From the NCBI GenBank assembly GCA_022769785.1, contig JALEIY010000023.1, positions 1 to 44,335 on the forward strand: DNA of 44,335 bases. Direction: 5' to 3'. Under the pieces are notes generated by a model. It saw only the letters and a program-made list of their open reading frames with translations. It was not told the DNA's origin and did not search any database. The stretch comes from Eubacterium sp. Its GTDB lineage: Bacteria; Bacillota; Clostridia; Lachnospirales; Lachnospiraceae. Below are positions 1,509-43,086 of the stretch, in pieces. Position 1 is the stretch's first letter; each line of letters opens with the position of its first letter. The translations under genes were made by a program, and so were the position numbers.

Positions 1509-2185
1509 ATAATCAGGTACCCAAGCCCCTGTCTTGCAGCCAGAAATTCACCGATAACGACACCGATTAAACACAACCCGATATCTACCTTCAGAGTGCT
1601 TAAAATAGAAGGAAAATTGATAGGAAGGATAACCTTGGTAAGACAGTCCATCCGATTGCCGTTTAAGGTTCGAATCAGCTTCAGTTTATCCGGGTCTGTG
1701 GACATAAAGCTGGTAAAAAGATTGAGAATACTTCCGAATACCGCTACGGAAATTGCCGTGACGATAATGGTTTTCATGTTATTTCCCAGCCATACAATAA
1801 AAATTGGTGCCATGGCGGATTTGGGAAGGCTGTTTAAAATCACAAAATAAGGCTCTAATATTTCGCTTAAGGTGTGATTCCACCATAAGATTACGGCGAG
1901 CAGGAGGCTGATGCCGGCCACGAGCAGGAAACTGACAAAGGTCTCCGCAAGGGTGATGCCGATATGGGAAAGCAGCTGTCCGTCGGAAAGCAGCTCTCCG
2001 GCACAGGCGGCAATTCCGGAAGGAGAGCTGAAAATAAACGTATTAAGAAGTCCTGTTCTGGCAGCCATCTCCCAGATAACAATAATAAAAAGGAGCAGAA
2101 GAATCTGTACAGACAGCACCCGGCTGTGGTGCTGTTTTATTTTTTTCAGATACAAAGCCTGCTCCGGATGAAATTCTTCTTTCAT
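1487..2185 (-). pseudogene. ABC transporter permease, 3'-truncated (SsuC/TauC/ThiX-like)
   Basis: This is a membrane permease of the nitrate/sulfonate/taurine/thiamine-precursor ABC importer class. It has an N-terminal TM helix (ILLLLFIIVIWEMAA), several further membrane segments and the EAA-like coupling region (LIRTLNGNRMDCLTKVILP). The start at 2185 is chosen because ATGA overlaps the stop of the upstream ATPase and GGAAGGAG lies just upstream. Family-like sequence ends at YGSQVLK (1487), where about 30-40 residues including the last TM helix are expected. The frame instead continues to a stop at 962, antisense to the ATPase fragment and the 3' half of mscL, giving an unrelated tail. The gene is therefore probably non-functional. 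Confidence 0.75.
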
Positions 2186-2949
2186 TCTGATTTCAGCTCC
2201 TTCCATATCTGGTCAAAATATTCCTGAAACTTCGGATGGAGCCGGGATTCGTGAGGAGACAGCCGGCAATCGCTGCCAAAATCAATCGGAATAATTTTCC
2301 GGATATAACCCGGTCTGCGTCCAAGTACAATAATACGGTCAGCAATACTGATGGCCTCCGAAAGGTCATGTGTGACAAAAAGACTTGTAATTTTCCTGCG
2401 GCGAATAATATTTCCGATATCCTCGGATACTTCAAGACGGGTCTGGTAATCGAGAGCACTGAAGGGTTCATCCAGAAGCAGAAGCTTCGGGTTTACCGCC
2501 AGTGTGCGAATCAGAGCAGCCCTCTGCCGCATTCCTCCGGAAAGTTCTCTGGGATACGCATTTGCAAAATCCGCAATACCGTAGTCCTCCATGAGTTCTC
2601 TGACCAGATTTGTCCGGTCTTTCGTAAGCCGGTGCTGAATCTCCAGCCCGAGAATGATATTCTGATATACCGTTCTGTATTCCAGTAAATGATCTTTTTG
2701 CAGCATATAGCCTATGCACGGCTGTCCTCCCGATGATGGATAAATAATATATCCGGACTGAACCGGGATAAAACCGGCAATCAGGTCAAGCAAGGTTGAT
2801 TTTCCGCAGCCGGAAGGCCCGACAATTGCTGCAAATTCCCCGGGAAAGAGATCGAAACTAATATCCGTCAGCGCCCTGGTCTCGCCAGATTTACTGTGGT
2901 ATGTGTGGGTCAGATTTCTGACCGATAAAAAAGGTTGTTTCTTTGGCAA
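2182..2949 (-). CDS. ABC transporter ATP-binding protein (SsuB/TauB family)
   Basis: This cytoplasmic ATPase energises an importer of the sulfonate/nitrate/taurine/thiamine-precursor type. The Walker A motif GPSGCGKST is near residue 42, the Q-loop is in YMLQKDHLL, the signature is LSGGMRQR, Walker B is LLLLDEP, and the H-loop is FVTHDLSEA. Length is 255 residues, normal for the family. The start is TTG at 2949: an in-frame stop lies just upstream, and AAAGGA sits about 10 bases before it. The stop overlaps the ATG of the downstream permease (ATGA), showing translational coupling. With the permease truncated and no substrate-binding protein in the window, the transporter looks incomplete; substrate cannot be inferred. 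Confidence 0.88.
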   Translation of the reverse strand: MPKKQPFLSVRNLTHTYHSKSGETRALTDISFDLFPGEFAAIVGPSGCGKSTLLDLIAGFIPVQSGYIIYPSSGGQPCIGYMLQKDHLLEYRTVYQNIILGLEIQHRLTKDRTNLVRELMEDYGIADFANAYPRELSGGMRQRAALIRTLAVNPKLLLLDEPFSALDYQTRLEVSEDIGNIIRRRKITSLFVTHDLSEAISIADRIIVLGRRPGYIRKIIPIDFGSDCRLSPHESRLHPKFQEYFDQIWKELKSE

Positions 2950-3229
2950 GACATCTCATTCCTTTCTCAAGGGTACAATTTAAAATATGCGGAAAAAACG
3001 GGAGAGTTCGTTCGGGGGAAATTGGACAAAAAATAAATTGACAAAATATTTTGACAAATTTCAAGAAGTTTCCGATGCAAAAAAGAGAATTTGCACACAA
3101 TTTAAATAAATGAAAATATGGGATTTTCTGGTCGAAATAAAATGTCAAGTGGCAAACTGCATAATATTTATTGGAATAAAATGTAAAAAAAACACCTGTA
3201 AAAATATGTGTGTGAACAACTATATCAAT

Positions 3230-3318
3230 TTATCCACACGAAATTCATGGAAAAAACCACTGAAAATCAACTTATCCACAAAGTTATCCACATTATCCAC
3301 AGGTTTTCCTGTGGATGA
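3230..3318 (+). promoter_or_regulatory. DnaA-box cluster (four perfect TTATCCACA boxes)
   Basis: Perfect 9-mers TTATCCACA occur at 3230-3238, 3272-3280, 3284-3292 and 3293-3301, all in the same direction, the last two directly abutting. A one-mismatch inverted copy (TGTGGATGA) is at 3310-3318, followed by a weaker GTGGATGG. TTATCCACA is the established DnaA-binding consensus. An AT-rich stretch lies immediately upstream. dnaA and dnaN are not in the window, so this is either an origin-like site or a DnaA-titrating/regulatory cluster. Confidence 0.85.
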
Positions 3319-3475
3319 AAAAAGTGGATGGTTTCGTCAAGATAAAACATGCGTTTTGTTAATTTTTTAATAAGGGCAAAAAAAAGAGCGAAAAAATGGG
3401 AAAAAGAATGATTATAATTTTTGCAAAATTGAGGTAAAAAAGGAGAAAATTCTGCAAATAACTTTGGGGGAATTC

Positions 3476-3504
3476 TTCCACATTTGGTGCAAATATGTTA
3501 TACT
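3476..3504 (+). promoter_or_regulatory. Possible promoter for hpf
   Basis: A TATACT -10 element (3499-3504) has a weak -35 (TTCCAC, 3476-3481) 17 bases upstream. It lies about 80 bases before the hpf start. The -10 is good and the -35 poor, so another sigma factor or activator may be involved. Confidence 0.4.
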
Positions 3505-3586
3505 ATAAATAACATATCATCTGCATAACGATGATATACGGATGGCGGGAAAACTGCCGCCGAATAAAATGAAGGAGTGTGATCTT

Positions 3587-4114
3587 ATGCGTTACATCAT
3601 CTATGGAAAGAATCTGGAAGTATCAGAAGGGCTGAAACAGTCTATCAGTGACAAGTTCAGCAAACTGGAGAAGTTTTTTACGCCCGATACGGAAGTTCAG
3701 GTCACATTAAGCATTCAGAGAGAGAACCAGATCGTGGAAGCAACCATTCCTATGAAAGGAACAATCCTGAGAGCAGAACAGAGCAGCAAAGATATGTATG
3801 CATCCATTGATATGGCGGTGGATGTGCTTGAACGCATGGTGAGAAAATATAAAACAAAAATCTCCAGCCATGGCAAGGGAATCGGAACCTTCAATGAAGA
3901 ATTCCTGGAAGAAGATGTGGACAACCATGAAACAATCCGCATAACAAGAAGCAAACGCTTCGCCATCAAGCCGATGGATGCGGAAGAAGCCTGCATACAG
4001 ATGGAGCTTCTCGGTCATGATTTCTATGTATTCCGCAATGCCAGAACCTTTGAAGTTAACGTAGTCTACAAACGAAAAGACCATACCTATGGTTTAATCG
4101 AGCCGGAGTTCTAA
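3587..4114 (+). CDS. hpf: Ribosome hibernation-promoting factor, long form
   Basis: Long HPF binds 30S subunits and dimerises 70S ribosomes into inactive 100S particles during slow growth. The N-terminal HPF/RaiA domain (RYIIYGKNLEVSEGLKQ, residues 1 to about 100) is followed by a linker and the C-terminal dimerisation domain (about 115-175, with FYVFRNARTFEVNVVYKR and DGLIEPE-like YGLIEPEF). The length of 175 residues fits the long form typical of Firmicutes. The start at 3587 is preferred over the ORF-track start at 3542 because GAAGGAG lies 9-10 bases upstream and homology begins here. It sits directly before secA, as in many Clostridia, but a long intergenic region with its own promoter separates the two. 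Confidence 0.93.
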   Translation: MRYIIYGKNLEVSEGLKQSISDKFSKLEKFFTPDTEVQVTLSIQRENQIVEATIPMKGTILRAEQSSKDMYASIDMAVDVLERMVRKYKTKISSHGKGIGTFNEEFLEEDVDNHETIRITRSKRFAIKPMDAEEACIQMELLGHDFYVFRNARTFEVNVVYKRKDHTYGLIEPEF

Positions 4115-35145: not shown

Positions 35146-35177
35146 TTGACAGGGACTAAAAATGATGATAGTATAAA
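35146..35177 (+). promoter_or_regulatory. Possible promoter of the surface adhesin gene
   Basis: TTGACA (35146-35151) and TATAAA (35172-35177) are separated by 20 bases, longer than ideal; GATAGT at 16-base spacing is an alternative -10. The start codon lies about 40 bases downstream. Confidence 0.35.
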
Positions 35178-35217
35178 AATGGAAAAAATAGTAAATGTAT
35201 TTGGAAAGGAGAGCAGC

Positions 35218-38200
35218 ATGGGAAACATTTGCAGACAGATTCTCGTGTTTCTTCTCGTTGCGGCCATGCTTTTTTCTGCCGTCCCTGTTCCGGTGTTTGC
35301 AGCCGGACAGTCAACCGGTGGACAGACAAAGCAGCCGTCATCAGAAGAATCCATTTCGGGAAATGTGCATGCAAATGAGAAAGAAGATGCCCCGGTGGGC
35401 AGAGAGAAGACACAATTAGAGAGAAATCAGGTGACTGCCACAGGCAGTGTATTAAACAATATGGAAAAAGCTGCAGAAGAAGCAGAGAAAACGGAGGCCG
35501 AAGCTTCAGAAAAAACATCGCAGGCTGAAGCTGACAAACCGGATTCTGACAAAGAAAATAATACGTCCGATACGTCAGAAAAGAAGGAAGAAACCGGAGA
35601 CAGTTCTCAGTCTGACACCGGACAAATCGGTGACAATACAGAGGAATCCACTTCTACTAGGGAAGAAGTGAAGAAAGAATCCGATGCAGACAAAGCAAGT
35701 GGAACGTTGCCTTCCGAGGATAAGACAGAGGATGCCTTGCCCGACAAGCAAACAAATCCTGAGAAGGAAGGGGAAAAACCGGAGAATGATGAGGAAGAAG
35801 TCCGTCATTTTCTGGAAACAGAAGAATTACAGGGGGAGTCTGCGCAGCTTTACAGTACCTTAGGACCTCACGATACGCCGATTCCGGGAGCTACAAGGCA
35901 CTATTTTACCCTTCAGAAAAACAGTAAGAAGGTATCGGAGACTTCCGGAGCGAAGGTGAAGGTGGTTTCCGGAGAAAAAGCAGGATATCAGTATATTGCG
36001 GATAATTATGGAGATGCCTGTAATTTTACACCCCGTTTTACCAATGCGACAAAAGTGAAGGTCGGAGGGGGAAGCGGCGGAGGGATTTCCTTTGATAAGG
36101 TTAAAGCATCGGAGTACAGCGTATATGGTGACCTTTTTACTTCTGTGCAAAACGGGAGAATCCAGACCAGGGTTTATGACCTGGAGAAATGTACAACGAA
36201 TCCGTATGCTCTGTATTCAAAGGTTGGCACCTGGTACGACCCCGTAACCCGTCGTGTTTATGATGTAGATATGAAGGTGACCGTAACCGGTTATCTTTTT
36301 CCGGGGAAAAATGTGCGCAGCCAGCTTCATAATACGAAGCTAAAGGCACCCTTTATAGGATTTCATAACAGCCAGATTGGGCTGGTGGTCATGGGAACCG
36401 ATTATGTGGAAACAAAGATGGATTTTTTCTATTCGGGAACGGAAACACCGGTTTCCGGAATAAAGGGTGCGATTCAGTTTGCAGATATTGATGCCCAGCA
36501 GGGTGTGGATTTTGGTTCGGGATTTTCGAAAGTGCTGTTATTTAAAGGGAGCGGAAGTCATCTTCAGTATCATTCAAAAGGAGTGATGAGCGGTTCGGTG
36601 GGATATGTTTCATCCCGAACAGTGGAGAATCTGTCAGTGCCGGATAAAAAGCTTACGACAGCAGTTGGGATTTTCAGTGGGCCATCTGTGAAGTGCCGAT
36701 GGACCGTGGCAAAATGTGACCATAAAGACACCGGAGGAAGCGGAACCACAGCGAATTATTATGCACCCGGTGGATACGGGATTCCGGCAGATTCCTCCCA
36801 GGCAGATGCCGTTTCCTATTATTACAGCAACAGTACCGGTTTTATTTATGTGGCTGCGCAGGTTGGGATATTGCCACTGCCTCAGGAAGTGAAAAAAGCA
36901 GTTTATACAGGAACGCTCAGCAGCAGCCGGTCACAGAGTCAGGAGAAAATTGCAAGGCTTGCAGACAGGGCAGAGAAGTTTACCTTTGTGGTATCTGCAG
37001 CAGCGGCATCCGGTTCTCCGTTTCTGGCATCTTATTCGTCCTTTGTGTTCAGTGACAGTATCAGTGAATACCTGAAGATTCGCAATATTAAAATTTATGC
37101 GGACAAGCCGGTCAGTTCTCCGTCTCAGGAAGGCGTATACTCCAATGTGACCAGTTGGTTTCACATTACCAGGGCGGTGCAGACGGATAAAAAGACAAAG
37201 GTGACGGCGGCAGCCACCCAGGAAGCCCGGGAGAAGGGCGGTTTTTACGGAAGAATGTATTATCTGCATATAGAAGTGGAATTAAAAAGTGATGCAGAAC
37301 TGTCATTGATTGGAAAACGTATCGAAGACATCTTTCAGACGGATAATACCATAGGGAAAAAAGTGCCGGGAACCGGTGATTATACAGGCAGATTCGCTCT
37401 GGACAATAAAGCGTCACTTAGTGTTGCCAACAGCACCGGAAATAAAGTATCCCTGGTTTCCAATGAGGTTTCCGCGGCTGTTTCCATGCGAATCGCGGTA
37501 AAAAAGCAGGACAGGGATTCCGGAGAACCGGTAAAAGGAGTTGTATTTGGGCTGTTTGGAGGAAGGGAAACAGAAAATAACGGAAACGAAGAACCATTAT
37601 ATAAAGCCGTGACAGATGAAAACGGAATTGCTGTCTTTGACAGCGGAAGCAATCAGACCTTTTATAAAGAAAAATATAAAGAAGGGCCTTATTATATCAA
37701 AGAAATTTCGGTTCCTGAGCAATATAAAAATGTCTGGAATCAAACGGCGATGAAGAAATGGAGTTTTCAGATTACGTCCCTGAAATCCGCGTCAATGTTG
37801 CTAAACAAAAACTTTTCATTAAAAGATATTTCTGCGGAAGCTATTTTAGTGAATGACAATAATATTCAGAACGAAAACGCTTTACGGGTTTATAAAAAAA
37901 GTAAAGATACGGGAGCTTATTTAAAGGGAGCAGTATTTCAATTATATGAGTGGTCAGCAAAGAAAAATACTTATGTAAAGAAGATGTCTCTTGCGGAGAA
38001 AGAGGATGCTTCAGGAAGAACTGTATATACGAACCCGGAGAAAATCATCAATACCATGGATAATCTGGGAAAATATAAAATCGTAGAAGCAAAAGCCCCA
38101 AAAGGCTGTGTTCTTACCGGCGAAGAATGGGCATTTGAAATATTTGCCGATACGCCGGCAGATGGAAGCAATCTCTGTTTTACCAGTATGACAACGGGAA

Positions 38201-41200
38201 AAATGCAGACTGGCAGTCTGGTGTATTCCAATCCTCTGCAAAAAGGAATTCTTACTATCGTGAAAAGAGATGACAAAGGGGAATTGGTACCGGGAGCCTC
38301 CTTTTCGGTCACAGCAAAAGAAGATATATACGCTCCGTGGGATGTGGATGAAAAAGGTAGTCCCTTAGAAAATGCGGAGCCTCTTATGAGCAAAGGAACC
38401 CTGGCAGACATTATTAAAACGGGAGAGAATGGAATCGGAAGCTCCACATCAGGCAGTGGGCTTTATATCGGAGAATATATTGTCAAAGAAACAGGAGGGG
38501 CAGAAGACCATATAAAAACAGAGGAAGAATACACGGTAACGCTGCAGTATAACGAGGATGAAACTCTGGCTTTTGTGTCGGCACAGATTGAAGTTTCCAA
38601 CTGTAAAATGCACCCTGCGCTGGCGGTTGCTAAAATAGCGGATCGGACGAGAGATTCTTCCGGAGGTAAAGTGGGATTCTCAGAGCAGACCGGAAGGTAT
38701 CTGGAGGAAAAAGTTGCAGGAATTTATCATGCCGAGGAAATCATACATTATACCATTACGGTTACGAACACCGGTAATGTGGAACTCTTTGACCTGCATC
38801 TTACAGAAGATATGAATGCTGTCAGTGCTTTGTGTAAGCACAGTCTGGCTTATTATATGGACATGGAAACGGCCTCCTTTGTACTGCCGGAGAACGGACT
38901 GTTTGAGACGGCAAAAGGTCGGCGGATTCATGGAAAACTGGCGGAAGAGACGAACCTGGAGATGACCTTTGACCATCTTGATATCGGGGACAGTGTCAGT
39001 GTGGACTTTACAGTTCGCGCCAGAGAGGATGCGGCCAATGCCTATAATCTGGAAAATTCAGTTCTTGCATCTGCATATTACAAAAAAAATCAGGAAGGAG
39101 AGGACGGCTCACTCTCTCCGGTACCGACAGCGCATTTGATAGATTCCGATGGAAACAGTCTGGTCGTTGATAAAGACCATATCCATATTCCGGGAGAACC
39201 GGGAAGCAATCTGGTGAAACAGGCAGACAGGACAACCGGAATAAAGATTCTTCGGGGAGAGATTGTTTCCGGCCTGAAAATTCCGGGTATTTACCGGGAA
39301 GGAGAAGAAATTGAGTTTCGTCTGACGGTAAAAAACACCGGAACAGCAAATCTTCATCATATCACAGTAACCGATGAGATGAGTCAGGAACTGAAGGACA
39401 TTATTGCAGAAGGCTCGGCAGCTTTTCGACTGAATAAAGAAAATGAGAAAGAAACAATCTTATTAACAGCAGACGGTAAGCAAGTCAGCGCCAGATGTAA
39501 AGAAGACGAAGTTGTTGAGCTTTGTTACAGTGACGGAGAGGAAGATAAGCTTCTCCCGGGAGATTATGTGGAATTATCCTTCTATGCGCAAATATGCCGG
39601 GATGCGGCTAATCTTTATGATCTGGAAAATACGGCTCGTATCAATGCCTGGTATTTTAATGGAACGGAAGACGTTCCAACCGATGAAAAAATCGATACGG
39701 ATAAGATAGAGATTCCGGGCACTCCGGAAACCGAAGTGGCAAAGCTGGCTAATCGAACCACAGGTGTAACCCTTGAAGATGGACGTTATCTCGGAACCAA
39801 AGTGACAGGATCCTATGAGAACGGAGAAAAAGCGGTGTATACCATTACAGTCACGAACATCGGGAAAACGGTACTTTATGATTTGCGGCTTGAGGATGTC
39901 ATGAGTGAAAAGCTAAAAAGCGCTCTTGTCAAAGAAAGTATCCATTTTGAGACCGGAGAATATAAAACAACGCAGGGACATCAGGTTCGAACCTGGGAAG
40001 AAAATTCAACCTGTCTTGGGATGGATGTCCTTCTTCCGGGGGACAGTGTGGATATTCGACTGACTGCAAAAGTACGGGAGGATGTCGGTAATCTTTTCGA
40101 ATTACAAAATACAGTGAATCTGACAGCAAAGTTCCGGCAGGGAAATGAAGAAGAAAAGAAGCTTTTTGACGAAAATGAGGAAAAGGACAGTAAAAAATAT
40201 TTGCTTCAATATGATTCCAATTTGCCAGCAGCAGAGACAGACCAGGAAAAAACAGACCGGGTGAAGGATTCAGAAACGCCATGTTCTTCCGGTACGTCGG
40301 TGCGGATTAACGGAAACTGCTTTGTCCGGGAAGGATACTATTTTTGCGGATGGAATACCAGGGCCGACGGCAGCGGAGAATGGATGCATCCCGATGAGAT
40401 TTATTCTATGCCGGACAGAGATGTCATCTTGTATGCCGGATGGAAAAAGAAGGAGACAGCTTCTCCGTCAGAAAAATTACCATATTATAAATTGTTCTAT
40501 GATTCCAATAATGACCTTTCTCAAAAAGAGGCCGATGAGGAAAATTCCATGCCGGAAGGATATCATGTAACGATAAACCAAAACAGCTTCATTTATCCGG
40601 GATGGGAATTTTGTGGCTGGAATACCAGAAAAGACGGTTCCGGAAAAACCTATATGCCAGGCAGTTCTTATTCTATGCCTGCAAAGGATGTAACACTTTA
40701 CGCAAGATGGAAAAAGATACCGGTTTATTCCGTGGTTTATCATGCGAATAACCAGACTTCGGTATCCTGTGAAGATGCCCGGACACCTTGTAATAAAGCC
40801 ACCGTAATCCGGCTTAGCGGAAATCCATATGAATATATACAAAATGGAAAAATATATTCCTTTGTTGAATGGAATACGCACCCGGACGGTTCCGGAGAAA
40901 GTTATCATCCGGGAGATACATTTACCGTTTTGTCAGATACTCATTTTTATGCCCAGTGGAAACTGTCAACAGAAAAAGAAGAGAAGGAAAAATATCCTCT
41001 GATTTACCGGGCAAATAATGGAACTGCTTCTAAAGACATCGATGAAGAATCGCCAAAGGCAGAAAAAGAGCCCCTTACCATTAATTCCAATCCATTTTAT
41101 TATGCCGGTTATAATTTTATCGGATGGAACACAAAATCCGACGGTACCGGAAAAGCGTATTCTCCGGGTGACATTCTCGAACAGCCTTCCCGTACGATGA

Positions 41201-43086
41201 TAATGTATGCCCAGTGGGAAAAGGCAAAACAGGGGACTCTGATTTATCACTCCAATACAAAAGCCCCCCTCACGGCGAAAGATGCACAAACGGTAGAAAA
41301 TACATCCGGTGTAATTACCATTGATGGAAATCCATTTGAAAATAAAGGCCATCTTTTTGTCGGATGGAATACCAAAGCCGATGGCACGGGAGACACCTGC
41401 TCACCGGGAGATTTTTATACACTCAATACAGGCGAAAGTCACCTGTATGCGCAATGGACTGACCAGATAGAAGAATTTGTTTTGTCCTATCATTCCAATT
41501 ATCCGGACGGAACTCTGGAAGAATACGAAACAGACAGTGAGACTCCATGCTGTGGCGGAACTTCAGTAAAAATAAACCGCAACTATTTCTGGGCTGAAGG
41601 CTGGCATTTTACCGGCTGGAATACAGCACAAAACGGAGAGGGAAAGCAGTACCTTCCTTCTCAGAAACTTCAAATGCCTTCAGAAACTGTGATTTTATAC
41701 GCACAATGGGAAAAAGAGGACGAAGAAAATGAGTCAAAACCGGATTCCGGAGCGGAAGAAACCAAACCGGAAGATGAAAACCGACCAGAGGAAGTGGAGC
41801 CTTCTCTTCCATCCGCAGAAGAAAAGGTAAAAGAAAATATTCAAAATATCTATCAGGCCCTTCGAAAGCAAAACCTCGAAGAAACCATCCGTAATACCGA
41901 AAGCTATATTGCTGTCCCGGTTACGGAGAAAATGACAGATTCTGACCATATCAACATTCTAGGAACCCCATCGGTAAAGGTCGCAAAAATGGCGGATAAA
42001 ACGACTGGAGCGGTGATGAAGAATGGAAGATATACAGGAAGGAAAATACCGGGAACTTATGGGTATCAGGAACAGGTTGATTATAAAATTACTGTCACAA
42101 ACAGCGGGACAGCTGATATTTACAACTTAATCGTTACCGACAAAATGGAACAGAGATTGTCTGATGTGATAGAAAAAGACTCGGTGCGTTTTATGCCTGG
42201 ACGATACCGTACACAAAAAGGAAAAACAGTCAATGCCATAACTCATGCAAGTTCAACGGAAAAGAATGCGCTCCAGATTGATTCTCTGTCAGCCGGTGAC
42301 AAGGTAATACTTCATCTGACCGCCAGAGTAAAAACCGGTGTCAAAGCAGCCAAAGGACTTCAAAACACAGTCACTGTAAAAGCCGAATATCAGTCAGGAA
42401 ATGATTCCTACGCCGAAGTACCGCAAACGCCGGAGATGACCGACAACGATAAAATCAATATCGGTACTGCCAGACTGGCAGTGGCAAAGCTGGCCGGGCC
42501 AATGACTATAGATTCCCTCAAAAATGGCCGGTATTCGGGCAAAAAGAAACAGTCAGCCTTTAATCGGGGACAAGAAGTCAGTTTTACTGTGATTGTGAGC
42601 AATCTGGGCACCGGAACAGCCCGAAATGTGATAATAAGAGATAACCTGGATGAAAAAAGCAGACAGCGCCTGAACATAATCGGGTTCTCTTTATCAAAAG
42701 GAGATATCCTGGAATCAGAAAAAGGAGAAAAAGTAAACATAATAAAAGCATCAGAAAGAGAAGTCATTCTTGAAGAGCTTCTCCCGCAAGATGCAGTTCT
42801 CCTGAAATTCACGGCAAAAATAAAAAAAGATGCTGCGGCAGGAACACATCTTACCAACACTGTAAAAATAACCGGTCAGAACCGTGATTTTACACCGATT
42901 CCGGAAACCGAAGAAATGCAGGACCAGGCTCAAATCAAAGTAAATGTACCTACCTTCCAAAAAGCAACCTTGCCTGCAAAAACAGGGGATACTCACCAAA
43001 TCAGAGAAATACTTGCACTACTCATATTGTGCCTGGCCACAATAAATCTGCTGTACTATTTAAGTAAGAGGAAAAAAGATCACTGA
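35218..43086 (+). CDS. Giant LPXTG-like surface adhesin with SpaA, DUF11-like and Flg_new repeats
   Basis: The 2,622-residue secreted protein is predicted to be cell-wall-anchored. A signal peptide (residues 1-31, VFLLVAAMLFSAVP then FAA) is followed by a very acidic, low-complexity stretch (about 35-205), a large unassigned domain (about 210-755), three SpaA-like prealbumin-fold domains (about 760-1130), three DUF11-like repeats (about 1132-1655), six Flg_new (Listeria-Bacteroides) repeats each with a WNT-DGSG core (about 1660-2165), an acidic linker, two more DUF11-like repeats (about 2253-2580), and a sorting signal: LPAKTGD, a hydrophobic helix and KRKK. The start at 35218 has AAAGGAG upstream. 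It is probably a stalk-like adhesin; its ligand is unknown, and no sortase gene is adjacent. Confidence 0.92.
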   Translation: MGNICRQILVFLLVAAMLFSAVPVPVFAAGQSTGGQTKQPSSEESISGNVHANEKEDAPVGREKTQLERNQVTATGSVLNNMEKAAEEAEKTEAEASEKTSQAEADKPDSDKENNTSDTSEKKEETGDSSQSDTGQIGDNTEESTSTREEVKKESDADKASGTLPSEDKTEDALPDKQTNPEKEGEKPENDEEEVRHFLETEELQGESAQLYSTLGPHDTPIPGATRHYFTLQKNSKKVSETSGAKVKVVSGEKAGYQYIADNYGDACNFTPRFTNATKVKVGGGSGGGISFDKVKASEYSVYGDLFTSVQNGRIQTRVYDLEKCTTNPYALYSKVGTWYDPVTRRVYDVDMKVTVTGYLFPGKNVRSQLHNTKLKAPFIGFHNSQIGLVVMGTDYVETKMDFFYSGTETPVSGIKGAIQFADIDAQQGVDFGSGFSKVLLFKGSGSHLQYHSKGVMSGSVGYVSSRTVENLSVPDKKLTTAVGIFSGPSVKCRWTVAKCDHKDTGGSGTTANYYAPGGYGIPADSSQADAVSYYYSNSTGFIYVAAQVGILPLPQEVKKAVYTGTLSSSRSQSQEKIARLADRAEKFTFVVSAAAASGSPFLASYSSFVFSDSISEYLKIRNIKIYADKPVSSPSQEGVYSNVTSWFHITRAVQTDKKTKVTAAATQEAREKGGFYGRMYYLHIEVELKSDAELSLIGKRIEDIFQTDNTIGKKVPGTGDYTGRFALDNKASLSVANSTGNKVSLVSNEVSAAVSMRIAVKKQDRDSGEPVKGVVFGLFGGRETENNGNEEPLYKAVTDENGIAVFDSGSNQTFYKEKYKEGPYYIKEISVPEQYKNVWNQTAMKKWSFQITSLKSASMLLNKNFSLKDISAEAILVNDNNIQNENALRVYKKSKDTGAYLKGAVFQLYEWSAKKNTYVKKMSLAEKEDASGRTVYTNPEKIINTMDNLGKYKIVEAKAPKGCVLTGEEWAFEIFADTPADGSNLCFTSMTTGKMQTGSLVYSNPLQKGILTIVKRDDKGELVPGASFSVTAKEDIYAPWDVDEKGSPLENAEPLMSKGTLADIIKTGENGIGSSTSGSGLYIGEYIVKETGGAEDHIKTEEEYTVTLQYNEDETLAFVSAQIEVSNCKMHPALAVAKIADRTRDSSGGKVGFSEQTGRYLEEKVAGIYHAEEIIHYTITVTNTGNVELFDLHLTEDMNAVSALCKHSLAYYMDMETASFVLPENGLFETAKGRRIHGKLAEETNLEMTFDHLDIGDSVSVDFTVRAREDAANAYNLENSVLASAYYKKNQEGEDGSLSPVPTAHLIDSDGNSLVVDKDHIHIPGEPGSNLVKQADRTTGIKILRGEIVSGLKIPGIYREGEEIEFRLTVKNTGTANLHHITVTDEMSQELKDIIAEGSAAFRLNKENEKETILLTADGKQVSARCKEDEVVELCYSDGEEDKLLPGDYVELSFYAQICRDAANLYDLENTARINAWYFNGTEDVPTDEKIDTDKIEIPGTPETEVAKLANRTTGVTLEDGRYLGTKVTGSYENGEKAVYTITVTNIGKTVLYDLRLEDVMSEKLKSALVKESIHFETGEYKTTQGHQVRTWEENSTCLGMDVLLPGDSVDIRLTAKVREDVGNLFELQNTVNLTAKFRQGNEEEKKLFDENEEKDSKKYLLQYDSNLPAAETDQEKTDRVKDSETPCSSGTSVRINGNCFVREGYYFCGWNTRADGSGEWMHPDEIYSMPDRDVILYAGWKKKETASPSEKLPYYKLFYDSNNDLSQKEADEENSMPEGYHVTINQNSFIYPGWEFCGWNTRKDGSGKTYMPGSSYSMPAKDVTLYARWKKIPVYSVVYHANNQTSVSCEDARTPCNKATVIRLSGNPYEYIQNGKIYSFVEWNTHPDGSGESYHPGDTFTVLSDTHFYAQWKLSTEKEEKEKYPLIYRANNGTASKDIDEESPKAEKEPLTINSNPFYYAGYNFIGWNTKSDGTGKAYSPGDILEQPSRTMIMYAQWEKAKQGTLIYHSNTKAPLTAKDAQTVENTSGVITIDGNPFENKGHLFVGWNTKADGTGDTCSPGDFYTLNTGESHLYAQWTDQIEEFVLSYHSNYPDGTLEEYETDSETPCCGGTSVKINRNYFWAEGWHFTGWNTAQNGEGKQYLPSQKLQMPSETVILYAQWEKEDEENESKPDSGAEETKPEDENRPEEVEPSLPSAEEKVKENIQNIYQALRKQNLEETIRNTESYIAVPVTEKMTDSDHINILGTPSVKVAKMADKTTGAVMKNGRYTGRKIPGTYGYQEQVDYKITVTNSGTADIYNLIVTDKMEQRLSDVIEKDSVRFMPGRYRTQKGKTVNAITHASSTEKNALQIDSLSAGDKVILHLTARVKTGVKAAKGLQNTVTVKAEYQSGNDSYAEVPQTPEMTDNDKINIGTARLAVAKLAGPMTIDSLKNGRYSGKKKQSAFNRGQEVSFTVIVSNLGTGTARNVIIRDNLDEKSRQRLNIIGFSLSKGDILESEKGEKVNIIKASEREVILEELLPQDAVLLKFTAKIKKDAAAGTHLTNTVKITGQNRDFTPIPETEEMQDQAQIKVNVPTFQKATLPAKTGDTHQIREILALLILCLATINLLYYLSKRKKDH
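38611..40194 (+). repeat. Three tandem DUF11-like repeats in the adhesin
   Basis: Units begin near 38611, 39211 and 39736, about 150-200 codons each. Each opens with VAK-AD-RTTG-like wording, has an ITVTN-G core, and the first two close with an IPG-P linker. The third lacks its closing linker, which is found instead after the Flg_new block. Confidence 0.75.
40198..41712 (+). repeat. Six Flg_new (Listeria-Bacteroides, InlB B-like) repeats in the adhesin
   Basis: Units of about 76-85 residues begin near 40198, 40480, 40726, 40990, 41233 and 41476. Each has the YDSN/YHAN start, a G-W-F-GWNT core, DG-G, a P-PG turn and ends with YAQW or similar. Units are diverged, not identical copies. Confidence 0.85.
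41974..42954 (+). repeat. Two further DUF11-like repeats in the adhesin
   Basis: Units begin near 41974 (VKVAKMADKTTG) and 42469 (ARLAVAKLAG), about 165 codons each, with ITVTNSGT and VIVSNLGTG cores. They continue the array interrupted by the Flg_new block. Confidence 0.75.

Follow-up and report, generated by a model that had tools for sequence, protein, structure and literature searches.

In Bacillus subtilis, six DnaA-box clusters (DBCs) have been described outside oriC (Okumura et al. 2012), and removing all six is reported to cause early initiation (PMC13220808, PMC5295017). A major DnaA-binding region of the same organism is the promoter region of sda, at which a strong preference for ATP-DnaA was seen in vitro (PMC4447404). 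In Escherichia coli, the spacing of the sites in datA and DARS is under selection (PMC13220808, PMC5295017, PMC4585315). Both elements are absent from B. subtilis, where a 2026 review lists the regulators that balance DnaA-ATP and DnaA-ADP as an open question (PMC13220808). Among the mostly open-access papers covered, we found none on DnaA boxes in Lachnospiraceae and none on DnaA together with a conserved non-coding element in Clostridia.

Here we describe a DnaA-box cluster that is part of a short, rigidly built, single-copy, family-wide DNA element of the gut-bacterial Lachnospiraceae. Across the family, the element consists, in order, of box A, an AT-rich spacer, a weak box B, 12 bp, the abutting boxes C and D, and a second motif that stands 49-52 bp after D. 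It would be the first built-to-plan DnaA-control element reported in this bacterial branch. With its fixed geometry and its conservation in a large family of anaerobes that matters medically, the element offers a concrete DNA target outside Proteobacteria for the DnaA-ATP/ADP question, and the second motif provides a handle on a predicted DnaA partner.

Comparison with described DnaA sites

The DBCs, also from a Gram-positive bacterium, group high-affinity boxes at sites other than oriC, and the element likewise carries several boxes of predicted high affinity in a non-oriC intergenic region. However, the DBCs are six dispersed clusters for which the papers cited report no fixed common architecture, helical phasing or second motif (PMC13220808, PMC5295017), whereas the element occurs in one copy, follows a rigid plan and falls in a different class. 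The similarity to datA extends to an intergenic, non-coding location, several boxes and conserved spacing, in the case of datA around a DNA-bending site, and datA acts away from oriC (PMC4585315, PMC5295017). The spacing of box A, spacer and boxes B-C-D and its helical phasing are observed in the element, and the spacer would be the part that bends. On the other hand, datA requires IHF and a conserved IHF site, which the element is not known to contain; the two are also unrelated in sequence and taxon, and the chromosomal position of the element is not conserved.

DARS1 and DARS2 of E. coli, which combine a non-coding box core with flanking accessory sites (PMC4585315), are comparable to the element and its predicted partner. 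While DARS2 has a three-box core with Fis and IHF sites, the element has four mostly direct boxes and the motif RAAcatnTGTTTTGT, which stands at a fixed phase to the boxes and would be occupied by a putative second protein. The sda promoter region is, like the element, an intergenic DnaA cluster (PMC4447404), but it has a single gene target, whereas the element lacks a constant one.

The box cluster and its setting

The window (the whole stretch of DNA analysed, 44,335 nucleotides) is one contig, C205, of a 2.33 Mb genome assembled in 225 contigs. The box cluster reported in the earlier note was confirmed: four exact TTATCCACA boxes stand on the + strand within 3230-3301, two of them abutting (3284 and 3293), with a near-perfect inverted box beside them (Table 1). 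The relative starts of boxes A/B/C/D are 0/42/54/63. When the window was shuffled 200 times with dinucleotides preserved, every stretch of 80 bp had at most one box per strand. At the position of the weak inverted box A', sister species carry better matches (TTRTCCACC). The AT-rich surroundings and the strand switch described in the same note were also confirmed: the gap at 2950-3586 is 68% AT compared with 55% for the window, and ABC-transporter genes at the left lie on the - strand while hpf, secA, prfB and long ORFs up to 43 kb lie on the + strand. A very long open frame of 2646 aa is found at 35146-43086.

Exact boxes number 80 in the 2.33 Mb genome against 12 for a reversed-pattern control (~6.7 times), indicating that single dispersed boxes are enriched too. 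Tight groups, however, occur only at the cluster in the window, at oriC (contig C217) and in the murC-dnaD interval (C122).

Table 1. Positions of the element, its parts and neighbouring features in the window.
Feature	Position	Strand	Remarks
Weak inverted box A' TTGTTCACA	3211..3219	-	19 bp before box A; from sequence and genus alignment
DnaA box A TTATCCACA	3230..3238	+	Exact match
DnaA box B	3272..3280	+	Perfect in the window; family form usually weak, TTATACACn
DnaA box C	3284..3292	+	12 bp after B
DnaA box D	3293..3301	+	Abuts C
Inverted box E TCATCCACA	3310..3318	-	Near-perfect; retained in part of the genus only
Second motif AAAACATGCGTTTTGT	3344..3359	+	Family form RAAcatnTGTTTTGT; GTTTTG 51 bp after box D
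Whole element	3226..3368	+	Match to profile R1, 79.5 bits, E 2.8e-22
Predicted hpf promoter	3477..3504	+	-35 TCCACA, -10 TATACT; outside the element
hpf (ribosome hibernation promoting factor)	3587..4114	+	Neighbour only
ABC-transporter ATPase, left neighbour	2182..2949	-	PF00005; not conserved beside the element

Distribution across Lachnospiraceae

A profile of the element (R1, 146 positions) was built from sequence only, using 57 model sequences, all from Lachnospiraceae. At E<=0.01 it matched 285 of 296 Lachnospiraceae genomes, although some of the weakest matches are to different box clusters; the one on C122 obtains 33.8 bits. With the cut-off at E<=1e-15, which corresponds to about 59 bits, it matched 121 of the 296, one copy each; MAG assemblies are incomplete, and strong matches in the genomes that supplied the 57 model sequences are non-independent. 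Among the matches listed down to 2.4e-14, no genome appeared twice. None of 277 genomes in a class-wide sample outside the family reached 58 bits with R1; the best such match (G334, 55 bits) covered positions 4-101, that is, the boxes only.

An exact composite pattern of the element matched at least 118 stretches in the GTDB genome collection (264 Gb, named genomes). Among the matches listed, essentially all came from Lachnospiraceae or from loosely labelled or unclassified Clostridia, together with one MAG labelled Bacteroides, and the genera included Blautia, Roseburia, Anaerostipes, Anaerobutyricum, Eisenbergiella, Lachnotalea and others. The element of Anaerobutyricum hallii DSM 3353 (L288) fits the pattern exactly.

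Fixed architecture and helical phasing

Within the genus of the window, boxes and spacing are kept in about 21 of 23 loci, despite a varying distance to hpf. When conservation upstream of hpf was checked more broadly, the 0/42/54/63 spacing was seen in nearly all members of the genus and in many other genera. The second motif was found de novo between box D and hpf as CAA....aAAcAT.tGTTTTGT, in a fixed place after D, and an alignment of 57 sequences has boxes and motif nearly invariant while the spacers are free.

Phasing was assessed in the 158 element instances left after de-duplication at 85% identity. Of these, 144 have 48-53 bp between box D and GTTTTG and the other 14 have 37-41 bp; gaps of 42-47 bp do not occur. 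Boxes A and C, compared in 148 instances, are separated by a distance of 52-56 bp in 131, 43 in 3, 63-67 in 10 and 73-75 in 4. These off-peak distances fit a period of ~10.5 bp, with p below 1/20000 by instance; when each length is counted once, a collapse that removes relatedness only partly, p is 0.004 for A-C and 0.002 for D-motif. Spacing changes of whole turns are a signature of proteins that have to meet on one face of the DNA. Since the off-peak distances lie mostly at whole helical turns, a single phased nucleoprotein complex is implied.

Proposed function

Taking together the sites, their spacing and phasing, the single copy, the restriction to the family, the independence from hpf and the distance from oriC, we favor, with moderate confidence, a free-standing extra-oriC DnaA-binding control element of Lachnospiraceae, which probably controls the amount of DnaA free to start replication. 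The earlier note had offered a replication-control or titration site away from the origin as one of its readings; this proposal survives and is strengthened by the family-wide, single-copy, helically phased conservation. Counted against it is the distance between element and oriC, which is not conserved.

In the proposed mechanism, boxes A, C and D would be strong DnaA sites and box B a weak one, and a short DnaA filament on B-C-D would be joined to DnaA on A by bending of the AT-rich spacer. A second protein, positioned by RAAcatnTGTTTTGT on the same helical face, would act on the DnaA complex, which could in turn change the amount or the state of DnaA available to oriC. This could occur by simple titration, by analogy with the Bacillus DnaA-box clusters, or by action on DnaA-ATP/ADP, as at datA, which with IHF stimulates hydrolysis of DnaA-ATP, or at DARS, which promotes the release of ADP from DnaA. 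The two routes look alike at the level of sequence. A more specific form of this proposal is a family-wide Gram-positive counterpart of datA/DARS, in which a complex of DnaA and a dedicated partner, assembled to a fixed plan, would switch the activity or nucleotide state of DnaA and not just its free amount; we put this forward only tentatively, as a possibility with the odds against it.

Relation to hpf and other neighboring genes

Homologs of hpf are present in 23 of 24 genomes of the genus and 287 of 296 Lachnospiraceae genomes, and the element has hpf downstream in 48 of 80 named loci (about 60%), the others being without it within the DNA compared. The element also stays with hpf where secA is divergent. 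These positions of the element could suggest a DnaA-dependent operator that represses or activates hpf (and secA), linking ribosome hibernation to replication. However, box D lies anywhere from 74 to 413 bp from the hpf promoter while the internal spacing is fixed, and many genera carry the same complete element at sites other than hpf, some of them between converging genes. It adjoins trxB in one locus (L171), separates NlpC/P60 from trmB in two (L180, L182) and trxB from V-ATPase subunit D in another (L217), and precedes a WecG/TagA-type (tagA-like) gene in L201. In three more (L172, L177, L178) it lies between genes for an NlpC/P60-SH3 hydrolase and mecA whose 3' ends both face it, an arrangement in which it cannot serve either gene as an operator on the promoter side.

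Thus, the association with hpf is not constant and the distance to its promoter is not constrained, a conclusion for which only homology-checked neighbors were used, as neighbor calls based on ORF length contain errors; an automatic count of converging neighbors (16 of 158) includes spurious antisense ORFs, with hpf in fact present at that place in L286 and L307. The tie between hpf and DnaA suggested in the earlier note is weakened accordingly: the element may have a role at hpf in part of the family, whereas we regard an hpf operator as an unlikely account of the element as a whole. In one group of loci (L058, L063, L090, L113, L119, L127, L129), the box cluster separates hpf from a divergently oriented secA, and most members of the group lack the GTTTTGT motif but keep the boxes and TTGAC.

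The second motif and the DNA downstream of it

The second motif resembles RAACNNNNGTTY, the symmetric LexA operator, and RAACATNNGTTTTGK occurs in this genome only at the element and in the lexA promoter, the sole other 15-base match to the motif. This raises the possibility of an SOS-linked site, with the motif serving as a LexA box and the element connecting DnaA to the response to DNA damage. Against this, the two halves of the motif are unequally conserved: the C of the left half is kept in only 70%, while the GTTTTG of the right half is fixed and GTTTTGT is about 99% fixed up to its last base. In addition, the lexA genes of 30 relatives have symmetric LexA boxes with no fixed TTGT tail. 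LexA is therefore a possible but not favored partner on the second motif, and we regard the SOS reading as a whole as unlikely.

A TTGAC half-site is often found at 102-108 bp after box D, with a smaller group at 92-97 bp (158 instances), and it is missing in most of the genus of the window. It could point to a promoter, or the element could belong to a small RNA or peptide that is absent from the annotation. However, no -10 is conserved at a fixed distance, the genus alignment contains no conserved ORF between element and hpf, and no Rfam family reaches its gathering cut-off. We consider these readings improbable. Two specific candidates were dropped, namely an sda-like small ORF after the second motif, for which the genus alignment has no conserved ORF, and an Rfam RNA, e.g. 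of the raiA type, with nothing at the gathering cut-off in 18 loci; sub-threshold matches in the window to Yfr17 and STnc560 were judged to be AT-rich chance matches.

Two further features were noted in this region. At 102-108 bp after box D, an inverted repeat, TTGAC-N8/9-GTCAA, has a fixed place in many genera; most Anaerobutyricum lack it. The other feature is TTTTGTCGAAAA, which L172, L177 and L178 carry between the second motif and TTGAC and which is similar to a Spo0A box. Sequences of this kind were seen in 20 of 158 instances, compared with 1.3 when mononucleotides were shuffled, and most of them start 30-31 bp downstream of GTTTTG.

Relation to oriC

In this genome, dnaA maps to contig C217, upstream of dnaN, and has boxes on both sides. 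The dnaA-dnaN gap contains TTATACACA-GATTCCACA-CCCCC-TACTACTACTACTACTG, which we take to be a Bacillus-type box pair with a DnaA-trio. At L003 6886-6935, this gap has the layout of a textbook unwinding module, with the box pair, CCCCC and five TAC trios. By comparison, no DnaA-trio or unwinding element follows box D in any of the 158 element instances. The strand switch in the window is not a skew switch, since cumulative GC skew climbs between the window start and the box site and on past it; the skew itself takes positive or near-zero values beginning at the left end, with no turn at 3.2 kb.

The element is not adjacent to dnaA or dnaN, either here or in complete relatives. In the latter, it lies at approximate distances of 68 kb (G083), 81 kb (G317), 144 kb (G163), 156 kb (G257), 238 kb (G219), 325 kb (G211), 0.47 Mb (G303), 0.85 Mb (G296), 0.98 Mb (G052) and 1.08 Mb (G004) from dnaN, and its orientation is with the fork in nine of the ten, G052 being the exception. 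The earlier note's proposal of a second part of the origin, for which the box cluster beside AT-rich DNA and between a divergent gene pair had spoken, is rejected, and an oriC fragment or second initiation site is extremely improbable, given the canonical bipartite oriC (box pair plus TACTACTACTACTACTG) at dnaA-dnaN on another contig, the lack of a skew minimum at the boxes and of a trio after D, and the distance from dnaN in relatives.

A second box cluster between murC and dnaD

The group in the murC-dnaD interval (L004 6198-6455; contig C122:34197-34454) consists of six exact same-direction boxes, four of which form two abutting pairs separated by about 180 bp. Judged from its sequence, it is a second conserved cluster of predicted DnaA sites outside oriC, upstream of the helicase-loading genes dnaD-dnaI. 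It recurs in most complete relatives (L176, L179, L181, L183, L184, L186-L189).
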